IMG/VR virus record: IMGVR_UViG_3300042515_001796
Coordinates: 1 to 32,726 of that record
Length of the DNA stretch: 32,726 nucleotides
From: a virus
Direction: 5' to 3' (one strand)
The translations under genes and the position numbers were made by a program. Each line of letters begins with the position of its first letter. Positions within the stretch are counted from its first letter, which is position 1. The notes under the pieces were generated by a model. The model saw only the letters and a list, made by a program, of their open reading frames with translations. It searched no databases and was not told the origin of the DNA. Shown here in pieces: positions 4,553 through 32,322 of this stretch.

Positions 4553-5092
4553 CTAAAACGGAATCTCGTCATCGTCGGCGGGATTGATTGCCGCCACCGC
4601 AGCCTTGCCGTTGCTGCGAGGGGTCGTAGCCTCGTCCGTCATGCGGGGCGCTGGTCTTGCGGGCGCTCGGTATGTGGTGGGCTTGCTTGCCGCGTTGCCG
4701 TCATCGTCCTCGGCAGCGATGCCGCAAGTCGCCATAAGCGAGTAACGGCGCGCGTAGGTCAGCGCGCTCCCGTAGCCCTGCGGGTCATTCTTGCTGGCCG
4801 GAACGTGGAGCAATCCGCCGCTCAACGTCTCGCCGCTGGTGTGAATGAGGATCGTTTCAATCGTCACGCCGCTCTCGCAGATGTGCGTCCGCTGGACAAG
4901 CGCGATGCCGTGTTTGTGAAGCGCGTCGATGACCGCCTCGACGCAGGCGTCCAATCCCGCGTATTTGCTTTTGAAATGCGGGTTGGTGTTGGTCTTTAAG
5001 GCGGGGCCGAAATCGGCCTGCGCCTTGACAAATGCGGCGGCGATGGATTTACCTACGCCTCGCACTTCATTGGATGCTTGTTCTGTGTTCAT
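4553..5092 (-). CDS. erf: ERF-family single-strand annealing protein
   Basis: A 179-aa protein matching the ERF superfamily of phage recombinases. The diagnostic segments are visible in order: KSIAAAFVKAQADFGPA, then NPHFKSKYAGLDACVEAV, GIALVQ, TILIHTSGETLSGG, and DPQGYGSALTYARRYSL with GIAAEDDDGN. These proteins form rings that anneal complementary single strands during phage recombination and genome circularisation. The C-terminus ends DDDEIPF, an SSB-type acidic tip. It lies between the SSB-like gene and a resolvase-like gene, forming a recombination module. The 11-mer AACACAGAACA follows directly on the start codon. Confidence 0.9.
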   Translation of the reverse strand: MNTEQASNEVRGVGKSIAAAFVKAQADFGPALKTNTNPHFKSKYAGLDACVEAVIDALHKHGIALVQRTHICESGVTIETILIHTSGETLSGGLLHVPASKNDPQGYGSALTYARRYSLMATCGIAAEDDDGNAASKPTTYRAPARPAPRMTDEATTPRSNGKAAVAAINPADDDEIPF

Positions 5093-6847: not shown

Positions 6848-7417
6848 TTATTTGATGGAGAATCCAGCGGTGATGCTTGTGACACCGCCAGCCGCCACAC
6901 ATGAGCCAGCCCAAGTCACAGACATTTGCGCCTGCGGCTTAATGAATGACTCGAAAATTTCCCAGTTGTCGCACTTGTCGCCAATAGACCAACGGAGGGT
7001 TGAAACTCCGCGCGCAAGCAGTTCCTCAAGCAACCAGAAAACAAAGCAGTCGTGTTCGTCCACATACATGGCAAGAACATCAAAATCCCCTCGCTCGTAT
7101 TTCGTGTAGCGCGCGCCGTAGTCCTTGGGATTGGCCGCGCAAGAAGGCTTGCCGCTGCCTATGATAATCTTCCACTTTCCATCCCGGTGCTGATACACGC
7201 CCTTCTTGATCTGCACGGACAGCGGGCGATTGGGCGGGCGGAAAATAATTACATCTGCGGGGGTTGAATGTCCGTGCGGCGTAAAAACGTGCCATCCGTT
7301 GCGCTTGGCTCGTGGCAGAAATTCCAGTTCTGAAATGTCACCCGTATCGCATGACTCGGAGCCATCGGCCTCGCGGCGAGGCGTGTCGTATTCAGCAAGA
7401 TCGAAAAGGGCGTCCAT
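6848..7417 (-). CDS. PD-(D/E)XK family endonuclease
   Basis: A 189-aa protein with the compact motif order of this family: GDISELEFLPRAKRNGWHVF (conserved Glu in a helix), THGHSTP..., PADVIIF (motif II Asp), then LSVQIKKG (Gln-x-Lys, the E/QxK position). Next come a basic strand region (DGKWKIIIGSGKP), YTKYERGDFDVLAMYVDE and FWLLEE. This resembles PDDEXK_5-type nucleases. It comes early in the operon, before the recombination genes, and could attack host or competing phage DNA or process recombination intermediates. The C-terminal 25 residues are hydrophobic and uncharged, which is unusual. Confidence 0.75.
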   Translation of the reverse strand: MDALFDLAEYDTPRREADGSESCDTGDISELEFLPRAKRNGWHVFTPHGHSTPADVIIFRPPNRPLSVQIKKGVYQHRDGKWKIIIGSGKPSCAANPKDYGARYTKYERGDFDVLAMYVDEHDCFVFWLLEELLARGVSTLRWSIGDKCDNWEIFESFIKPQAQMSVTWAGSCVAAGGVTSITAGFSIK

Positions 7418-7992: not shown

Positions 7993-8199
7993 ATGAAAGC
8001 AAAACCCAAAAAAGATCGGGCCGTTAAGCTGTCAGTCAGCTTGCAGCCCAAGCACATCCAGTTCATTGAACAAAACCTCGGCATCTTTGGCACCACCAGC
8101 GGGGCCATCACCCGCGGCCTTGATGAACTGATTGCCCGCGTGGCCGAAGACCCGGACGTTTATACGATCAAACCCGTGCTACCCAAGGGCTTCAAATAG
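7993..8199 (+). CDS. Ribbon-helix-helix-like small regulator (68 aa)
   Basis: Begins MKAKPKKDRAVKLSVSLQPKHIQFIEQN, with a basic arm, a strand (VKLSVSL) and a helix, then TTSGAITRGLDELIARV as the second helix: the RHH layout. It diverges from the leftward RHH gene across the shared operator-like region, and its 3' end overlaps the integrase gene tail to tail by 8 bases. This suggests one protein sets each direction, as in a two-repressor switch. There is no ribosome binding site in its leader. Confidence 0.65.
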   Translation: MKAKPKKDRAVKLSVSLQPKHIQFIEQNLGIFGTTSGAITRGLDELIARVAEDPDVYTIKPVLPKGFK

Positions 8200-9205
8200 C
8201 CCACCAAGCCCGCCAATCGGCCAAGGCGGCAGGCACGGCATAGACCCGCTGCACCATTGCGGGCGAGGTGTGTCCCATTTGAAAGGCCGTTAGTGGGGCC
8301 GACTTGCACCGGGCCAAGTGATAGGTAGCGAACGAGTGCCGCAGGCAGTTATCCGGCCAGCCATCCGGCCCAAGCACGGGCGCGGCCATCCGCCGCCGAT
8401 GAGCGTGCAGCGTCTCCTTGGCAACCGGGATGATGTTGCCCGTCTTGCCTCGGAAGAACTTCGCTCGCCTCGTCAGCGGCTCGGTAAAGTCCACGATCCT
8501 CTGGTCAAAGCCGCCGACCGCTTGCTTGATGGCATCGGGCGGCACATGGATTTGCTTGGTCTTGTGGTCGATATTCTCCCACCGCATCCGGCAGACCTCC
8601 TCCGTCCGCAGTCCCGCGAAACCGCCAAGCAAAAGCAAGGCGCGCAAGTAGTCGGCCATCTCCAACTCAAGCAGTGCAGTCATTTGGGCGGGGGTCAAAA
8701 TCTCCCGCCCCGGCTTTGTCTTCGGGGTCGGCACCGCCGTCACGGGGTCATGCGGGATCAAGCGATTGGCAAAAAGGTAGCCAAAGAACATCTTGCAGTA
8801 GCGGTAATACATCGCCTGCGTGTTGCCGTTGGTGCTGCGGGCTTTGATCCATCGCCGCAGAGCGGCGGCTTCGATCTCGCCCGCAGGGCCACGAAACGCT
8901 TTGCCGAAAGCCTTTTCAAAGATGGCGAGTTTTTGCCGATGGCTGTCGCTCTGCGGGTCGGCCTCGTTGACGAACATTCGCAGCGCCCCCATGACCGTGA
9001 GGCCGTCTGGCTGGCGCAGTGCTTGCGTGCCTTTCTCCTGCACCTTGGCCGTCAGCTTTGCTCCCTCGGCCCATGCCAATTCCTCGGCCACGAAGAACCG
9101 CCGCACCCGTTTTCCGTGGGCAAAAAAGTCGCAGCACCACGGACTTTCGGCCCTTCCCGCGACCTTGCGGACGCGAAAGCGGACGGGGTTAATGTTGCGA
9201 CTCAT
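8192..9205 (-). CDS. int: Tyrosine recombinase / phage integrase
   Basis: A 337-aa protein from the chosen start MSRNINPVRF (an upstream ATG at 9265 would add 20 residues). An N-terminal arm-binding part is followed by a SAM-like core-binding domain (about residues 65-150) and the catalytic domain. Catalytic positions are visible: Arg in FAGLRTEEV (R200), Arg in CLRHSF (R289), His in MGHTS (H312) and the nucleophile Tyr in QRVYA (Y322). The first His of the usual HxxR box is Asn here (NCLR). It integrates or excises the phage; the tRNA-Ser 3' fragment and repeated arm-type motifs just upstream mark its site. Confidence 0.92.
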   Translation of the reverse strand: MSRNINPVRFRVRKVAGRAESPWCCDFFAHGKRVRRFFVAEELAWAEGAKLTAKVQEKGTQALRQPDGLTVMGALRMFVNEADPQSDSHRQKLAIFEKAFGKAFRGPAGEIEAAALRRWIKARSTNGNTQAMYYRYCKMFFGYLFANRLIPHDPVTAVPTPKTKPGREILTPAQMTALLELEMADYLRALLLLGGFAGLRTEEVCRMRWENIDHKTKQIHVPPDAIKQAVGGFDQRIVDFTEPLTRRAKFFRGKTGNIIPVAKETLHAHRRRMAAPVLGPDGWPDNCLRHSFATYHLARCKSAPLTAFQMGHTSPAMVQRVYAVPAALADWRAWWAI

Positions 9206-9214
9206 TGCAGTGCT

Positions 9215-9448
9215 TGTGCCACAAGTGCCAAAATATGGCACCGAAAAGCCAACATTGCAAAACATTAACCACAGACAACCAAAGACAAGGCAAAGTCACA
9301 AGTGCTTGATACGTGCCACTTTCTACAGAGAAAATGGCGGAAGGGGAGAGATTTGAACTCTCGGTGAGGTTTCCCCCACGCTCGATTTCGAGGTGAGGGG
9401 TTGTCTCTAATGGTCAACGCTTTACAAAAGCTGTGCCAACAAGTGCCA
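9215..9448. other. attP: attP region: arm-type repeats around a tRNA core
   Basis: TGTGCCACAAGTGCCA (9215-9230) and TGTGCCAACAAGTGCCA (9432-9448) are near-identical and flank the tRNA fragment; a third ACAAGTGC copy is at 9298-9305. They look like integrase arm-type binding sites on the two sides of the crossover core. Phage genes continue on both sides, which is what an unrecombined attP should look like. Confidence 0.7.
9335..9392 (-). tRNA. 3' fragment of tRNA-Ser(CGA), attP core
   Basis: Read on the minus strand, the segment contains the anticodon loop CTCGAAA (anticodon CGA at 9388-9390), the 3' half of the anticodon stem (TCGAG) and a 6-bp long variable arm with a GAAA loop. A T arm GAGAG-TTCAAAT-CTCTC, the acceptor 3' strand CCCTTCC, discriminator G and an encoded CCA follow. 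The 5' half is missing: no GGAAGGG strand and no D arm occur upstream, and the two inner anticodon-stem pairs are broken. This is the part of a host tRNA gene that phages carry in attP to restore the gene after integration. Confidence 0.85.
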
Positions 9449-25230: not shown

Positions 25231-25611
25231 TTATCCGGTGATCAGCGGGTATTGGCTGGCATCGACCGAGAAAGCCGCGAAGGCTTCGCTCGTTTGCGAG
25301 CGGGTCGTGCTGTTGACCAAGACCGAGCCGGAAGTGATTCCGTTGGCGCTGGTCGTGTTGTTGATCGTGAGCGCCACGCCGGGGGCCGCGAGGCCGAGGC
25401 CCGTGGTCAATCCATTGGCAACGCCTTCGATGGTGATTGCCGCCATCGGCTTGTAGTAAGAAACGGCCACGACATCGCCTTGATCGTTGGTTAGTTCGAC
25501 CTTTTCGCGTGAAGTCGTGCGGGTGAAAGAATTGATGATGATGCCAGTTTCCGCTGTGCAGCCGAAAACAACGGCGGCAGACGAGGAAGAGGTAATGGTG
25601 ATCGCGGGCAT
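25231..25611 (-). CDS. Major tail tube protein (126 aa)
   Basis: MPAITITSSSSAAVVFGCTAETGIIINSFTRTT, then REKVELTNDQGDVVAVSYY, is a beta-rich sequence of the right size and position for a tail tube subunit: after the tail terminator and before the chaperone. The Ser/Thr/Ala-rich composition and the strand with QGDVV (a common tube-protein hairpin) agree. It is expected to be one of the most abundant virion proteins. The start is marked by TTGACA with a 13-nt spacer. Confidence 0.7.
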   Translation of the reverse strand: MPAITITSSSSAAVVFGCTAETGIIINSFTRTTSREKVELTNDQGDVVAVSYYKPMAAITIEGVANGLTTGLGLAAPGVALTINNTTSANGITSGSVLVNSTTRSQTSEAFAAFSVDASQYPLITG

Positions 25612-25630
25612 ACCTCGCCGCGCCTGTCAA
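25612..25630 (-). promoter_or_regulatory. TTGACA start-associated motif (spacer 13), tail tube gene
   Basis: Minus-strand TTGACA at 25625-25630, three bases after the stop of the tail-terminator-like gene, so it cannot be there because of coding constraint. Confidence 0.55.
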
Positions 25631-25633
25631 CCG

Positions 25634-26131
25634 TTACACCAGACGCGAAACGTGGACGCTAAATCGGTAGCTGCGGACGGCGTGACGCTCTTGACGGCTA
25701 AACTCCATCGACCCTTGCCGAACCAAGCCGTGCCAAGTGACCGAGGCGCGAGAGCCTTGCAAGACGGCCAGCAGTTGCGGGTCTTCGATTAAGGCCACGC
25801 AAGCCGACCAAAGCTGATCGGTAAATTCCTGCGGCGGTTTGTCGCACTGCTCCTCGTCTTGATCCGCGAGGGTTAGCTGACTGACTGTGACTTCGACTTC
25901 GTAAACGTCTCCGGTCGGGATCGACTCGCGCAAGCGGGCCGCGCGGATGACGATGGCGGGCAGTTCAAGATCGTCGCCGCTATCGCCGCGCGCCACGGTA
26001 ACGCCTGCCATGCCGTAGCCGCGCAGAGTAAAGCTAAACGTGTCGGCCACGCATTTCTCGACCGCCTCCTCCAAAGGTTCCGGCGCACGGCGTTTGATCG
26101 ACTGATAACTTAGCGGGACGGACTCTGGCAT
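25634..26131 (-). CDS. Tail terminator-like protein (165 aa)
   Basis: PLEEAVEKCVADTFSFTLRGYGM, then GDDLELPAIVIRAARLRESIPTGDVYEVEVTVSQLTLADQDEEQ and RSYRFSVHVSRLV, fits the small alpha/beta proteins that cap the finished tail and join it to the head (gpU-like). It overlaps the head-closure-like gene by 22 bases. The assignment rests on position and fold pattern. Confidence 0.65.
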   Translation of the reverse strand: MPESVPLSYQSIKRRAPEPLEEAVEKCVADTFSFTLRGYGMAGVTVARGDSGDDLELPAIVIRAARLRESIPTGDVYEVEVTVSQLTLADQDEEQCDKPPQEFTDQLWSACVALIEDPQLLAVLQGSRASVTWHGLVRQGSMEFSRQERHAVRSYRFSVHVSRLV

Positions 26132-26433
26132 GAGAATATGAGTTCTTGCCCATCTTGGGCGCGTTCAATGCTGATAACGCGGTAGGTTTTGGTGACGCCT
26201 GCCGACAACACCGTCAGCTTGCTCCCGACCTTGACCGCGCGGGTGTCGGTCGTGGACTTCACGTGCAGGCCGATGTCGCGGGAGGGCAGGAATCCGCCTT
26301 CGGCAATGTCGCTGCCGACCGTTCCCTGTGTGACCGCCGCGCTAAACGTGGACGAACCGAAAGTCACCGTTGCGGGCAAGTCCGCAATGATGCTGTCGAG
26401 TTCGGTAGCGAGCCGCGCCGTGTCGAGGGCCAT
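26110..26433 (-). CDS. Head-tail connector/head-closure-like protein (107 aa)
   Basis: MALDTARLATELDSIIADLPATVTFG..., then FLPSRDIGLHVKSTTDTRAVKVGSKLTVLSAGVTKTYRVISIERAQDGQELIF, is a small beta-rich protein with the head-closure layout (SPP1 gp16/HK97-like). It is the first tail-joining gene after the glycosylation cassette and carries TTGACA 13 nt before its ATG, within the last codons of the preceding gene. Confidence 0.6.
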   Translation of the reverse strand: MALDTARLATELDSIIADLPATVTFGSSTFSAAVTQGTVGSDIAEGGFLPSRDIGLHVKSTTDTRAVKVGSKLTVLSAGVTKTYRVISIERAQDGQELIFSCQSPSR

Positions 26434-26452
26434 GCTACGGCTACACTGTCAA
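26434..26452 (-). promoter_or_regulatory. TTGACA start-associated motif (spacer 13) inside the upstream gene
   Basis: Minus-strand TTGACA at 26447-26452 is read as the codons for Leu-Thr at the very end of the GT31-like gene, so the motif is kept inside coding sequence. Confidence 0.55.
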
Positions 26453-27085
26453 GGCTTCGTATAGCCTACTAAAACTGACCCGATCCTTTACGTGAACGGA
26501 TACCGTGTCCCTCAAATCAATCTTGTCGATAGGTGCTCCGGGGCCGTGCATATTCACAATGCTGCACCAGCGGATTGCAGCCATATCGGCCAAAATCGCA
26601 AGGCTAACGTCACTAAACATTGTATGCCGGGGCCAAGGCATGGACACAGAGCGCAATGCTCGCAGGGCTAAAGCAGAGACAATTATCCCGCAGCCGCCAT
26701 GCGCGTGCAGAATGACCGTGTTTCCCACGGGCGCGGGTCCGATGTGTCCGCAGATCACCGCTTCTTGTTGCGGAAGGACCGCAAGAATGGATGCCAGATT
26801 CGGCAAATTGAACCACGTATCGTCGTCTGCAATAACAAACCAGTCGGCCTCGTTTCCTGTATTGCGTTGAAGCACGGCCCAGACTTTGTCGTGGCACGAA
26901 TCATAATCATCGTGATCGCACACTCGCGTTACGGGGATGTCGTCCACAGGATCAAACCCGCCAAGCAACGTTACCGAGCAAGCCGGGTATTCGCGCAAAA
27001 TCATGGCGCATGTTGTTTGCCACAAATCGCGGGTTCGCGATTCGTGTAAGCTGCGGCAGACTAAAAAATTAAAAGAACACTTCAT
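26441..27085 (-). CDS. Fringe/GT31-like glycosyltransferase (214 aa)
   Basis: Start MKCSFNFLVCRSLHESR, ATGA-coupled to the GT2 gene. The DxD-type metal/nucleotide-sugar site is WFVIADDDTWFNLPNL (residues 82-97), followed by HAHGGCGIIVSALALRAL (the GG-G acceptor loop) and FSDVSLAILADM (a late acidic catalytic region). This order is that of Fringe/GT31 galactosyl- or N-acetylglucosaminyl-type transferases, a family best known from eukaryotes. There is no transmembrane anchor, so it would act in the cytoplasm, probably on virion proteins. The DNA is less GC-rich than the neighbours. Confidence 0.78.
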   Translation of the reverse strand: MKCSFNFLVCRSLHESRTRDLWQTTCAMILREYPACSVTLLGGFDPVDDIPVTRVCDHDDYDSCHDKVWAVLQRNTGNEADWFVIADDDTWFNLPNLASILAVLPQQEAVICGHIGPAPVGNTVILHAHGGCGIIVSALALRALRSVSMPWPRHTMFSDVSLAILADMAAIRWCSIVNMHGPGAPIDKIDLRDTVSVHVKDRVSFSRLYEALTV

Positions 27086-27657
27086 TTTTGCAGGGTGGTC
27101 TTGCCGCTGTCGAAGTTGTAGCGGTGCAGGATTTGCGGGATGTGCGCTTCTGTCTCGGCCTCGGCCCAAAGGTGGCGCAGCCAAAGGATGTCTTCATTCC
27201 TTCGCACTTGTGGCACGGCATAAGCGCAAGCCAGTTCCCGCCGCCAGACGCACCAGAACCACGGCGGGCGCTTGGTTACTGCTCCGGGGCGGAAGGGTTC
27301 GACCTCATGGCCGAGGCGGCAGTTGATGCGACCCGTCTCGCCATCGACGTTGGCCCACTGGTCAAAGGTGATTACGTCCTTGTCGTGCGGGATGTTAGCG
27401 AGGACGAGTTCAAAGTAGCCTTCGCAGAGCGCATCATCGTCATCAAGGAAGGTGATATACTTGCCCCCTGCTGCGCGCAGGAGCTTGTTGCGGGCCTCTC
27501 CGATGCCGCACAGGAGGTTTTCCCGCAGCATTACTATCTCGACGTTGCGACCCTTCACGCGAGCCTCCAGCGACCGGAATAAGGCATTAGCTTCCTGCTC
27601 CCGCTCGGTGATGGTCGGGATAAGGACGGACAGTTCGGGTGTCGGTGCGCGCTTCAT
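27082..27657 (-). CDS. GT2-family glycosyltransferase (191 aa)
   Basis: ELSVLIPTITERE... is the GT-A nucleotide-binding start, then NVEIVMLRENLLCGIGEARNKLLRAAGGKYITFLDDDDAL (DDDD at 72-75, the metal-binding DxD) and RNEDILWLRHLW (the late acidic ED). It adds a sugar from a nucleotide donor. ATGA coupled on both sides, so it is made with the GT31-like and FkbM genes. Confidence 0.85.
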   Translation of the reverse strand: MKRAPTPELSVLIPTITEREQEANALFRSLEARVKGRNVEIVMLRENLLCGIGEARNKLLRAAGGKYITFLDDDDALCEGYFELVLANIPHDKDVITFDQWANVDGETGRINCRLGHEVEPFRPGAVTKRPPWFWCVWRRELACAYAVPQVRRNEDILWLRHLWAEAETEAHIPQILHRYNFDSGKTTLQK

Positions 27658-28253
27658 CGTAGGAAAATCACGTTTTCGGCGTTCATCGCGGCGACCCGGA
27701 AGGAGGCGGGCATTGCAATCTCTTGCGCGCCGTCATGCTCCAGAACCACGGCCTTGACTCCGAAACGGTCAAAGTCGAATGCGCTGGCGATTTGCGCGCT
27801 GGTTCCTTCGGTGTCGATGCTCACAAGGTCAATTTGCGGAGGCAGTAGCCACATGAGTTCGGTCATGCTGATCGTCGCGGCGGTCATGGCAATGTGCTTG
27901 CCGCTCACGCGACCCGCCCATTTATCCGGATGCCATGTCTCGGTGGTGCTTATCGCGCCGTCATTCTCCGCATCCTTGGGCATCAGCCATACCGATGCGG
28001 GCGGCCGCGCGTTAATCGTCACGGCCCCGGCGACGATGCGGATGCGAGGGTTGTCTTTGTAGGATTCGATCAAATCGACCAGCCCGTAAGGCGACATCTC
28101 GACCATGACGCCAGACCAGCCGCGCTCAATCAGCGCGCGAGTGTTGGAGTGGCGGGTCGGATGAAATGCGCCGATCTCCAAAAATGTGCCGTCTGCCTTG
28201 TCGCCAAAGTTGTCGAGCAAGACCGCTTCTTCGTTGTTCTGTGAATAGCTCAT
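27654..28253 (-). CDS. FkbM-family methyltransferase (199 aa)
   Basis: YSQNNEEAVLLDNFGDKADGTFLEIGAFHP is the FkbM SAM-binding start (SQ-E-V-L, then FLEIGA), followed by NTRALIERGWSGVMVEMSP and LVSIDTEG (motif with catalytic Asp/Glu). These enzymes O-methylate sugars, often the outer residue of glycans. Set between glycosyltransferases, it probably caps the same glycan. The ATG is ATGA-coupled on both sides. Confidence 0.85.
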   Translation of the reverse strand: MSYSQNNEEAVLLDNFGDKADGTFLEIGAFHPTRHSNTRALIERGWSGVMVEMSPYGLVDLIESYKDNPRIRIVAGAVTINARPPASVWLMPKDAENDGAISTTETWHPDKWAGRVSGKHIAMTAATISMTELMWLLPPQIDLVSIDTEGTSAQIASAFDFDRFGVKAVVLEHDGAQEIAMPASFRVAAMNAENVIFLR

Positions 28254-29938
28254 GGGTGGCGGGCTTGAAAGATTGCTTTGGCCCTTTCGTATTCGGCTGG
28301 GTCGTTGCCGCGCTCGTAGGTCGCGTCCATTTTCACCTTGTCGTTAAAGAACGGATGATGGTGGTGGATGACGATGTGCGGGGCTTCGATGATTGCCCCG
28401 GCCTTGGTCGCGGTTGCGGTCAAATCGTTGTCGGAATAGACGTTGCGATATTCCCCGTGGAACAGTCCGTGAATGTCGTGCCAGCGGCGGGTAACGATGG
28501 CGCAAGTGATTAATCCGTCCGTGCGGTTGCCGTCCGAAACGCGCAGCACTTTGGGCGAAAAGATGTCGCCGCCTAACGCATCAACAATGAGGCGATCCCA
28601 GCCGAGCGGCGGCTCAAAGTCATCGGCTATCTGGATGAGCACATCACCGGAAGCGGCATCGGCGGCGGTGTTCCATGCGCCGACCGAGTAACCCCTGTCG
28701 GAGATTACGGCCCGGAACCGCGTCAGCTTTTCGTCCGTCTCTTTATCGTCCTCGTCTATGGCGAAGATATGCTCAACGGCCATCGGGTTTGTGGCGCGGG
28801 AAACCCACAGATTCATTGCCTGTATTGCTTGCGACCAGCGGCCACGGGTGGCGTGCAACAAAGAAATGCGGGGCTTGCCGCCGTCTTCCAGCATCTTTTC
28901 TTCGATCTCCGCAGCCTTGGCCTCGTCGCCATTGGCGCGATGCGCCCACGCAAGAGTAGCAAAACCCTTCCATCCGTAGATTTCCGGGCGGTGCGTCCAT
29001 TCGTAGATTTTCGGTTCCTTGATTGTTAGGCAATGCTCGGCAGTCTTGACCGCTTCGGCGGTTTGCCCCGCGTCCATCTGCAAGAGGGCCAGCAAGTGAT
29101 GCGCCTCGCGCCGGGAGTCGCAGAGCTTGATAGCGCGTTGCAGCAAGTCCTGTCCGTGTTCGTTTTTCTCGGCCAGCATCGCAAGATTGAGCAGGACTTC
29201 GTAGCGATAAACTCCATCGAGGTTTTCAAGGCGCAGGGCTTGCAGACCGTATTTGACCGCCTCTTCGCGCTTGCCGAGCAGGAAGAACTCGTAGTGCAGA
29301 TAGAAAGCGATGTGCTGCGTCTCTTGATAGCGCCAGAGCAGGATGTTGAGGTTGCGTTCCTGTGATCCGGTCTTGGCGTCGAGCGGCTGGTGAACAATGC
29401 GGATGTCCTTGCGGACGCGCACTTGCAGGGTGTCCTTGTCTTTGTCCTCCGTGACCGGGATGCACTTTTCGTGAACCCCGTTGAACCATGCCGCCGTGCC
29501 GCGACGGAACAGGCGCTCGCGCAGGACGGACTTGCAGTGCTGCGGCAACTCATACTCGGCCAAAATCCAATCCTCTTTGGTATCGGTGCAGGCTTGCTTG
29601 ATTGTCTCACCCATCCCTTCGGGCAGGGTATCGTCGCAATCCATCCACATGAACCACTCGGCGGGTGTTACTGCGGCCAACCGGAAGGCTTCATTACGGG
29701 CGGCAGCAAAATCGTCCACAAAAGGCCACGATGCGGTCGCGGGGCTGTTGTGATATTCCCCGACAATGCAACCGCGCTCACGGGCAATCTGAAGCGATTT
29801 GTCGGGCTTCTGGCCCCCGATGGCACGCACGACAATAACGGTGTCGCTGACGGTGAAGGCGCTATCCAGCGCCCGCCCCATGATCCCCTCTTCGTTGCCG
29901 CATATGAGGCATACGGCGACCTTCGACTGAATTTGCAT
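28250..29938 (-). CDS. Double-domain glycosyltransferase with TPR middle (562 aa)
   Basis: The N-terminal GT2 domain (residues 7-165) has VAVCLICGNEEGIMGRALDS, FAAARNEAF and the DxD site WMDCDDTLPEG (D100, D102). Helical TPR-like repeats follow (about 205-340; KREEAVKYGLQALRLEN, then REAHHLLALLQMDAG and WKGFATLAWAHRANG). The C-terminal part (about 360-545) is a second GT-A-like domain (PRISLLHATRGRWSQAIQAM, then DVLIQIADDFEPP). Two transfer domains on one TPR scaffold suggest a processive or sequential glycan builder that holds a protein substrate. It opens the cassette directly after the capsid terminator; TTGACA lies 16 nt before its start, with a CTGCC/GGCAG hairpin in the spacer. Confidence 0.8.
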   Translation of the reverse strand: MQIQSKVAVCLICGNEEGIMGRALDSAFTVSDTVIVVRAIGGQKPDKSLQIARERGCIVGEYHNSPATASWPFVDDFAAARNEAFRLAAVTPAEWFMWMDCDDTLPEGMGETIKQACTDTKEDWILAEYELPQHCKSVLRERLFRRGTAAWFNGVHEKCIPVTEDKDKDTLQVRVRKDIRIVHQPLDAKTGSQERNLNILLWRYQETQHIAFYLHYEFFLLGKREEAVKYGLQALRLENLDGVYRYEVLLNLAMLAEKNEHGQDLLQRAIKLCDSRREAHHLLALLQMDAGQTAEAVKTAEHCLTIKEPKIYEWTHRPEIYGWKGFATLAWAHRANGDEAKAAEIEEKMLEDGGKPRISLLHATRGRWSQAIQAMNLWVSRATNPMAVEHIFAIDEDDKETDEKLTRFRAVISDRGYSVGAWNTAADAASGDVLIQIADDFEPPLGWDRLIVDALGGDIFSPKVLRVSDGNRTDGLITCAIVTRRWHDIHGLFHGEYRNVYSDNDLTATATKAGAIIEAPHIVIHHHHPFFNDKVKMDATYERGNDPAEYERAKAIFQARHP

Positions 29939-29960
29939 CTGCCCCGTGGCAGACTGTCAA
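29939..29960 (-). promoter_or_regulatory. TTGACA start-associated motif (spacer 16), glyco cassette
   Basis: Minus-strand TTGACA at 29955-29960. The spacer contains a 5-bp hairpin CTGCC-ACGG-GGCAG that would bring the motif closer to the ATG. Confidence 0.5.
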
Positions 29961-29967
29961 TCAAACG

Positions 29968-29992
29968 AAAAACCCCGCCCTTTCGGGCGGGG
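29968..29992 (-). terminator. Strong Rho-independent terminator behind the capsid gene
   Basis: CCCCGCCC/GGGCGGGG (8-bp perfect stem, 4-nt loop; minus-strand loop GAAA) followed on the minus strand by five T. It separates the major capsid gene from the glycosylation cassette. Confidence 0.9.
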
Positions 29993-30018
29993 TCTTAGTG
30001 AACACACAGAACAGTCGT

Positions 30019-30981
30019 TTAGGCGTAGCTGGTGTCGATGCCGATGGCGCAGGAAGTGTCGATCAGCTTCTCAGCCGTGTTGTGGCGAGCGCGGATGACG
30101 TTGCTGCGGCGGGCTTCGTCGCGGTAAGTTTCCGTGACCAGCGGGGTCGGGCTGTCTTCGCTCCAGAGGAGGGTGCGGCCCAAACCGCCAGCGGTGAACT
30201 CACCAGCGCCGAGCTTGGCGACGACAACCTTGGAGTTGCCCCAGATGAAGGAACCGGAATAGCTCTGACCTTTCTTCGCGCCGTTACGAGCGCCACGACC
30301 GATGAGGACGCGAGACACGTTGAGGGCGGCGGCAACTTCCTCGGCGGAAGCAGGACGAACCTGCGCCACGTTTTTGACGGGGCCGAAAAGGTTGTTGAGA
30401 AGTTTGGTGCTGCGGCGGATGCGGTTGAACACCGGGAGAGAAAGGATCACCGTGTCGGCAACCACGTTCTTCTTGGCGAGTTCCGTCATCGCATCGTCAA
30501 CGTCCTTGGCGATATCGAGGGTGTCGATTGAGCCAGCGGTGTAAGCGGCATTCGCGCTGATGGCGCTGATGCTGGAACCGAAAACGAGGTCGGCAACGCG
30601 CTGCTCATGCGAGATGAGCAAGCTGTTGTTGAGGAACGCGGCGCTGGACACTTCAACGTCGAAGTAACGTCCAAGGTCAGCGGCAGTCTCGTCGGGCAGA
30701 AGCTCTTCGAGTTCGTAGCTGGTCGTGGCGTAGGTGTCGCTGGTGAAGCGGCGGGTGACGCGCGAGCGAGCCGCACCGGGATCAGTCTTGAGCGCGTCGA
30801 CGTTGTAGGCTTCGCCGCCGCCGAGTTCGATTTTCAGATACTCACCGGAGCGAGCAGCAACCGAATAGACCGGAAGCACTTCAAGGCCGATGAACGGGAG
30901 GGAGGCGGAATTAGACTGCGCCTCAAAAACCGCTTGCGAGATTTCCGCGCGGGGCAGAGCGTTGGAGTTTGTGTAAGCCAT
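30019..30981 (-). CDS. Major capsid protein (HK97-type fold)
   Basis: A 320-aa protein of typical length. Segments MAYTNSNALPRAEISQAVFEAQ, LPFIGLEVLPVYSVAARSGEYLKI, SYELEELLPDETAADLGRYFDVEV, VDDAMTELAKKNVVADTVILSLPVFNRIRRS and SEDSPTPLVTETYRDEARRSNVIRARH fit the phage HK97-type major capsid family (gpE-like branch), including the late domain with YRDE...RARH. It sits after the decoration-like gene and before a strong terminator, matching a very highly expressed gene. No leader ribosome binding site is obvious. Confidence 0.88.
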   Translation of the reverse strand: MAYTNSNALPRAEISQAVFEAQSNSASLPFIGLEVLPVYSVAARSGEYLKIELGGGEAYNVDALKTDPGAARSRVTRRFTSDTYATTSYELEELLPDETAADLGRYFDVEVSSAAFLNNSLLISHEQRVADLVFGSSISAISANAAYTAGSIDTLDIAKDVDDAMTELAKKNVVADTVILSLPVFNRIRRSTKLLNNLFGPVKNVAQVRPASAEEVAAALNVSRVLIGRGARNGAKKGQSYSGSFIWGNSKVVVAKLGAGEFTAGGLGRTLLWSEDSPTPLVTETYRDEARRSNVIRARHNTAEKLIDTSCAIGIDTSYA

Positions 30982-31000: not shown

Positions 31001-31354
31001 TTAGAAGCTCTTGACGGGAACCGCGACCTCGATGATGTCGTTGGTCGTGCCAGCATTGATGGCAAAGCCGACAGTCACGCCGCCAGCCGAGGCCACGGTG
31101 CCAGCGGCAACCGCGTGAACCACCGCGCCAGCAGCAACGCCAGCACCGGAAACGGTGGCGAGGTAGGTCGGGTTGAAAAGTTTGACGCCCACCACTTGAG
31201 CCGCCGAAGCGTCATCTTGGGTGAACCCGATAGCCGCACCGTTGGTGGCGGCGACAACTTCGTTTTCGGTCGTGTGAAGACGAACGAGGCGGAAGGCGCT
31301 GATCGCCGCGTTGGCGACGAAAGAGCGGTTTGTTGAATCAACTTGGGATGCCAT
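31001..31354 (-). CDS. Capsid decoration-like protein (117 aa, DUF2190-like)
   Basis: MASQVDSTNRSFVANAAISAFRLVRLHTTENEVVAATNGAAIGFTQDDAS, then VKLFNPTYLATVSGAGVAAGAVVHAVAAG, is the Ala/Gly/Val-rich small beta pattern of head decoration/stabilisation proteins, normally encoded between protease/scaffold and capsid genes, as here. Confidence 0.78.
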   Translation of the reverse strand: MASQVDSTNRSFVANAAISAFRLVRLHTTENEVVAATNGAAIGFTQDDASAAQVVGVKLFNPTYLATVSGAGVAAGAVVHAVAAGTVASAGGVTVGFAINAGTTNDIIEVAVPVKSF

Positions 31355-32303: not shown

Positions 32304-32322
32304 TCCAAGTTCCGACTGTCAA
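32304..32322 (-). promoter_or_regulatory. TTGACA start-associated motif (spacer 13), protease gene
   Basis: Minus-strand TTGACA at 32317-32322. A G/C-rich hairpin (CGGGGG/CCCCCG region, about 32330-32352) lies just upstream and may be a weak terminator of the preceding gene; no other gene is seen in 32304-32397. Confidence 0.5.

Follow-up and report, generated by a model that had tools for sequence, protein, structure and literature searches.

A predicted virion glycosylation operon with a fixed SunS-type enzyme and exchangeable partner genes behind the capsid gene of uncultivated phages

The stretch of DNA analysed here, called the window, comprises 32,726 nucleotides (32.7 kb) of the IMG/VR virus record IMGVR_UViG_3300042515_001796; IMG/VR contigs may be fragments. 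Behind the major capsid gene of the window lie four genes of the minus strand, named A, B, C and D (Table 1), and the operon formed by them probably serves to assemble an oligosaccharide on one of the phage's own particle proteins. We infer that the acceptor is a capsid, decoration or tail-tube protein, and likewise in what order the enzymes act. Virion glycosylation by phages has been proven in a few mycobacteriophages. If the proposed function is correct, a large lineage of uncultivated phages would have a sugar coat as a regular feature, and one that diversifies, and the natural combinations of enzymes would give material for testing what the coat is for. The principle of virion glycosylation is already known; the invariant SunS-type core, the exchange of genes around it and the lineage itself are new as far as was searched.

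The position of gene A was followed in scans driven by the capsid protein alone, which gave 251 relatives in a capsid alignment scan and, taken together, 70 distinct capsid sequences (duplicate loci were removed on the basis of the capsid DNA sequence alone). Gene A lies next to the capsid gene in 65 of the 65 distinct loci whose sequence continues for 600 nt or more beyond that gene, and between the capsid gene and the probable head-tail gene HT1 in 46 of the 46 distinct loci reaching HT1. When the loci found through A itself are added, the counts become 95/95 and 71/71, respectively. Three clades are covered; outside the clade of the window (clade 1) the identity to the window's proteins falls to ~52% for the capsid protein and ~48% for A. 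The earlier note, made from the letters of this DNA, had left room for the cassette being an optional insert that a synteny search would reveal. This is rejected, as zero capsid loci without A were found and A is present in each of the 65 checkable ones. The cassette genes have ratios of nonsynonymous to synonymous substitution rates (dN/dS) of 0.10–0.17, similar to the 0.16 of the capsid gene, demonstrating purifying selection on all of them. Together with the position of A in 65/65 distinct loci, these values argue that the four-gene arrangement is not a product of chance. A degraded lipopolysaccharide locus of host origin was also considered and rejected, since the genes are all intact and under purifying selection.

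Gene A encodes a glycosyltransferase (GT) of composite architecture. Its residues 11–109 match PF00535 (E 1e-7), the region of residues ~278–308 gives weak tetratricopeptide repeat (TPR) models below their cut-offs, and residues 357–550 form a second GT domain (phrog_14945, E 3e-15); a match to phrog_13126 was obtained as well. The catalytic-type residues DCDD (100–103) and DD (439–440) are invariant. The nearest solved relatives of A by sequence profile are SunS (E 1.6e-8) and GmaR (E 5e-8). A Foldseek search with the AlphaFold2 (AF2) model of A likewise places SunS/ThuS at the top (E 5e-14), followed by chondroitin polymerase; the predicted local distance difference test score (pLDDT) of this model is 77 and its predicted template modelling score (pTM) is 0.44, the placement of the domains relative to each other being weak. 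SunS is a peptide S-glycosyltransferase modifying a bacteriocin, and GmaR acts on flagellin. The SunS-type succession of a GT2 catalytic domain with a DxD motif and TPR helices is found in A. In contrast to SunS and GmaR, A carries the second GT domain and sits in a head operon. No match to A was detected among 50,697 phage records at E 1e-5.

The enzyme names proposed in the earlier note hold for A (GT2-TPR-GT), C (GT2) and D (Fringe/GT31-like). Gene B can be named only FkbM-like, because it matches PF05050 (E 6e-4) with 20.5 bits, below the cut-off of 22.7; its homologues match PF05050 in 8 of 8 cases and no other family, and the catalytic-type residues DTEG (147–150) are invariant. Protein C belongs to PF00535 (E 2e-10) with invariant catalytic-type residues DDDD (72–75) and ED, and its best profile matches in the PDB are chondroitin synthase and polypeptide GalNAc-transferase 1. 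Protein D matches PF02434 (Fringe) with 26.4 bits, above the curated cut-off of 21, and its best PDB profile matches are a beta-1,3-glucosyltransferase (E 2e-5) and C1GalT1 (E 0.005); DDD (87–89) is invariant. Foldseek matches of D are CHSY3/CHPF, Manic Fringe, C1GalT1 and the GT domain of chlorovirus A64R, obtained with a model of pLDDT only 60. The start of D is most likely the ATG at 27085; with the listed TTG at 27184 as start codon, D and C would share 100 nt. NCBIfam did not help in naming the proteins.

Table 1. Features of the cassette and its borders in the window.
Feature	Coordinates	Strand	Description
Gene A	28250..29938	-	562 aa; GT2 domain, TPR region, second GT domain; fixed core enzyme
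Gene B	27654..28253	-	199 aa; FkbM-like methyltransferase; exchangeable slot 2
Gene C	27082..27657	-	191 aa; GT2 glycosyltransferase; fixed in clade 1
Gene D	26441..27085	-	214 aa; Fringe/GT31-like glycosyltransferase; exchangeable slot 4
Major capsid gene	30019..30981	-	320 aa; phrog_1005, E 4e-24
HT1	26110..26433	-	Downstream edge of the cassette; probable head-tail gene by position
Intrinsic terminator	29969..29996	-	Gap between capsid gene and cassette; 12-pair stem and T run
TTGACAG element	29954..29960	-	22 nt upstream of gene A; marks where the cassette unit begins
TTGACAG element	26446..26452	-	Inside the 3' end of D, 19 nt before the next unit; 23/23 loci whatever fills slot 4

The four reading frames are open and intact at 26441–29938 of the minus strand, exactly as the earlier note had placed them, and the translational coupling it had described is evident from the ATGA overlaps at the A/B, B/C and C/D junctions. 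Its placement of the cassette directly behind the major capsid gene was also right, the probable head-tail genes being on the other side. The order along the minus strand is protease/scaffold-like gene, decoration-like gene (31001–31354), major capsid gene, A, B, C, D, small conserved genes and, farther on, tape measure gene. HT1 holds the downstream edge in every locus reaching that far; it has no family match in Pfam or PHROGs, and its head-tail role is probable from its position alone.

Comparison of the loci demonstrates that the cassette consists of a fixed core and exchangeable slots. In clade 1 both A and C are constant. The slot between A and C (slot 2) contains an FkbM-like methyltransferase gene, an unrelated methyltransferase gene of PF13578, or nothing. 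The slot between C and HT1 (slot 4) is filled by Fringe, by a gene for a 305-aa GT of PF13524 or by a methyltransferase gene with an inverted Fringe-like gene (locus L004), or is empty. Nine of the 12 possible combinations were seen in 24 loci. The four-gene block insert described in the earlier note thus does not agree with these data: A is fixed in the lineage and C in the window's clade, and the methyltransferase and Fringe slots swap independently. In clade 2, A is accompanied by a DUF5672 protein and by a 217–253-aa protein without a Pfam match, which by eye resembles GT-B enzymes. Clade 3 has another A-like protein directly after A; the match of its C-terminal part to PF13578 is just under the cut-off.

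In L004 (8900–10172) the Fringe-like gene of slot 4 lies on the opposite strand beside the methyltransferase gene, and its product is 52% identical to D. A phase switch was considered for this inverted gene and rejected, as long flanking inverted repeats were not found. In clade 2 the gap between HT1 and HT2 (L083 11533–14103, L064 8878–9729 and others) harbors a gene for a collagen-like protein of very variable length, often together with one for a PATR-repeat protein; these are possible fibres, decorations or glycan acceptors.

The identities of individual genes point to their separate movement. Between L005 and L016 the nucleotide identity is 92.6% for C and 95.5% for Fringe, as against 69.8% for A and 81.6% for HT1. 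Similarly, L023 and L010 share 96.3% in the gene for the alternative 305-aa GT, as against 83.4% in C and 76.0% in HT1, and L004 and L020 share 99.2% in B, as against 90.7% in A. These comparisons indicate that the slot genes move between phages independently of the flanking genes. On the protein tree of the capsid module the state of slot 2 changes no fewer than 8 times and that of slot 4 no fewer than 7 times; the counts are approximate, as the tree comes from a short search and some of its forks are unresolved. The exchange is bounded by the ATGA overlaps and, distally, by the common sequence AAGCC(A)TTGACAG...TAGCATGGC. A tentative interpretation, for which the odds seem somewhat short of even, is that the cassette is a virion glycotype locus throughout the lineage: an ancient and fixed initiator A would be coupled to the capsid gene, the outer enzymes would be reshuffled at defined edges (the ATGA overlaps and the TTGACA of the next unit), and the sugar coat would diversify combinatorially, like a bacterial serotype locus.

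The gap between the capsid gene and A contains a strong intrinsic terminator. A terminator-like hairpin with a T run is kept in 28 of 28 clade-1 loci examined, with compensatory changes of the stem in L016 and L032. It is followed by a TTGACAG element, which in the window occurs on the minus strand also at the end of D (Table 1), at 32316–32322 and at 25624–25630. In 12 clade-1 loci 71 of the 74 TTGACA sites on the coding strand sit 19–22 nt before the ATG of an open frame; the median for other hexamers is 2%. The element precedes the protease/scaffold gene (34/34), A (28/28), HT1 (23/23) and a tail-tube-like gene (22/22; 25231–25611 in the window), and never the capsid gene, the decoration gene, B, C or HT2 in the clade-1 loci; it marks the gene that opens each unit and is also present in clades 2 and 3. 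As the HT1 element overlaps the 3' end of the last cassette gene, LT(V/E) is the common C-terminus of C, Fringe and the 305-aa GT. A sigma-70 -35 box was rejected as an explanation, because the -10 box would land within coding sequence. The element may be a promoter of another kind or a translation element. The terminator before A and the placement of TTGACA suggest that A-B-C-D is one expression unit, apart from the capsid unit. The statement of the earlier note that the glycan is made at the time of capsid production was therefore too strong, as the cassette has a start element of its own and a conserved terminator stands between it and the capsid unit.

The following scheme is proposed for the operon, which would be expressed as a unit by itself downstream of the capsid terminator. 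The first step would fall to A, a soluble enzyme of SunS/GmaR type with two domains: it would initiate the glycan on a side chain of the acceptor protein, and its C-terminal domain may add a second sugar. C would extend the glycan, D or its replacements would add a branch or a terminal sugar, and B or its replacement would methylate the terminal sugar. Because A and C stay while the outer enzymes are exchanged, the glycan is expected to have a constant core and a strain-variable outer end. The donors would be nucleotide sugars of the host. In 16 related records of 32–43 kb, the GT2 matches of each record lie together in a single short segment, and the search for NTP-transferase (sugar-nucleotide) genes gave none, with the reservation that the records may be incomplete. 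A thymidylate-synthase-type base-modifying gene is present in 0 of these 16 records and was not seen among the scanned open reading frames of the window. The absence of both kinds of gene from the 16 records argues for host-made donors and against glycosylation of DNA. The methyl-capped virion glycan of the earlier note is still the best reading of the enzyme set, as a prediction.

Several points weigh against a virion acceptor. It is deduced from position, conservation and enzyme relatives only, and the acceptors of many GT2-TPR proteins are not established. The needs of expression alone could also hold the operon next to the capsid gene. Finally, the Pfam score of B is under the curated cut-off, and D has a poor AF2 model, as its pLDDT shows.

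Glycosylation of phage DNA at hypermodified bases is the least convincing of the alternatives and very improbable: it is known in other phages carrying GTs (PMC12619734), but the lack of a thymidylate-synthase-type gene in the 16 related records and among the scanned frames of the window, the soluble GT2-TPR enzyme of protein type and the location among head genes do not fit it. Another target could be a protein outside the head and the tail tube, namely a tail-fibre or host protein. The collagen-like and PATR-repeat proteins encoded right behind HT1 in clade 2 are plausible acceptors there; they cannot be the common acceptor, because the window's clade keeps A without having those genes at that place, and we regard such a target as rather unlikely. 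The operon might also modify the host surface (lipopolysaccharide, capsule, S-layer or pilus), either in lysogens or towards the end of an infection, and so block superinfection or aid release. GTs of phages are able to perform serotype conversion (PMC4691112), and an integrase gene (8192–9265) suggests that the phage may be temperate. Against this, no flippase or membrane GT family was matched in the cassette by Pfam or PHROGs, and the gtr-type serotype-conversion set (flippase GtrA, bactoprenol GT GtrB and membrane GT) was not found there. Besides, GTs for surface conversion usually reside in lysogeny regions, the present operon is placed among head genes and the relatives of A act on proteins. 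Modification of the host surface is thus an improbable function, and glycosylation of a virion protein is preferred.

The location of the cassette is not without precedent, contrary to the earlier note. Cluster J mycobacteriophages (Omega, LittleE and Thibault) carry 8–10 genes, including several GTs and S-adenosylmethionine (SAM) methyltransferases, in the interval from capsid to connector; the authors of that report left the targets open (PMC3706429). Several GTs and a SAM methyltransferase between capsid and connector genes are found in the window as well. The shared features comprise the interval itself, one GT with two catalytic domains and methyltransferases differing between phages (PMC3706429). 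LittleE gp15, encoded directly behind the capsid gene of that phage, is ~30% identical to C over nearly the full length; no such match was found for A, B and D. Cluster J differs in its phages and hosts, and its 8–10 genes include a kinase and a metalloprotease-like protein; a SunS-type GT2-TPR enzyme and Fringe are not reported for it in the text consulted (PMC3706429). The lineage of the window differs further by having A in every examined locus and by the independent exchange of the slots.

In the mycobacteriophages Che8, Corndog and Myrna, the capsid and tail-tube proteins are reported to be glycosylated (Freeman et al. 2023, cited through PMC12363180 and PMC12619734). According to these citing papers, glycosylation of the virions by phage-encoded GTs was demonstrated experimentally in those phages, whereas for the window it is predicted; A, C and D are phage-encoded GTs by Pfam and PHROGs. 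A methylated virion glycan is known from chlorovirus PBCV-1, where the virus-encoded capsid glycan ends in O-methylated rhamnose (PMC4691112). In contrast to the phage of the window, PBCV-1 is a eukaryotic virus and makes some of its own sugar nucleotides.

As for the host, the only match to the capsid in scans of GTDB genomes was a contig of 3.5 kb, binned as Thermoleophilia and too short for the host to be named from it. The integrase of the window had no match in phage records. Its gene (PF00589, 8192–9265), by which the phage may be temperate, is accompanied by genes for an ERF recombinase (4553–5092) and a PD-(D/E)XK nuclease (6848–7417). The capsid and decoration genes start (at 30981 and 31354, respectively) without an evident Shine-Dalgarno sequence, with leaders such as ctaacaactaacgacctaccact before the capsid ATG, and leaders of this kind may hint at the type of translation start used by the host.

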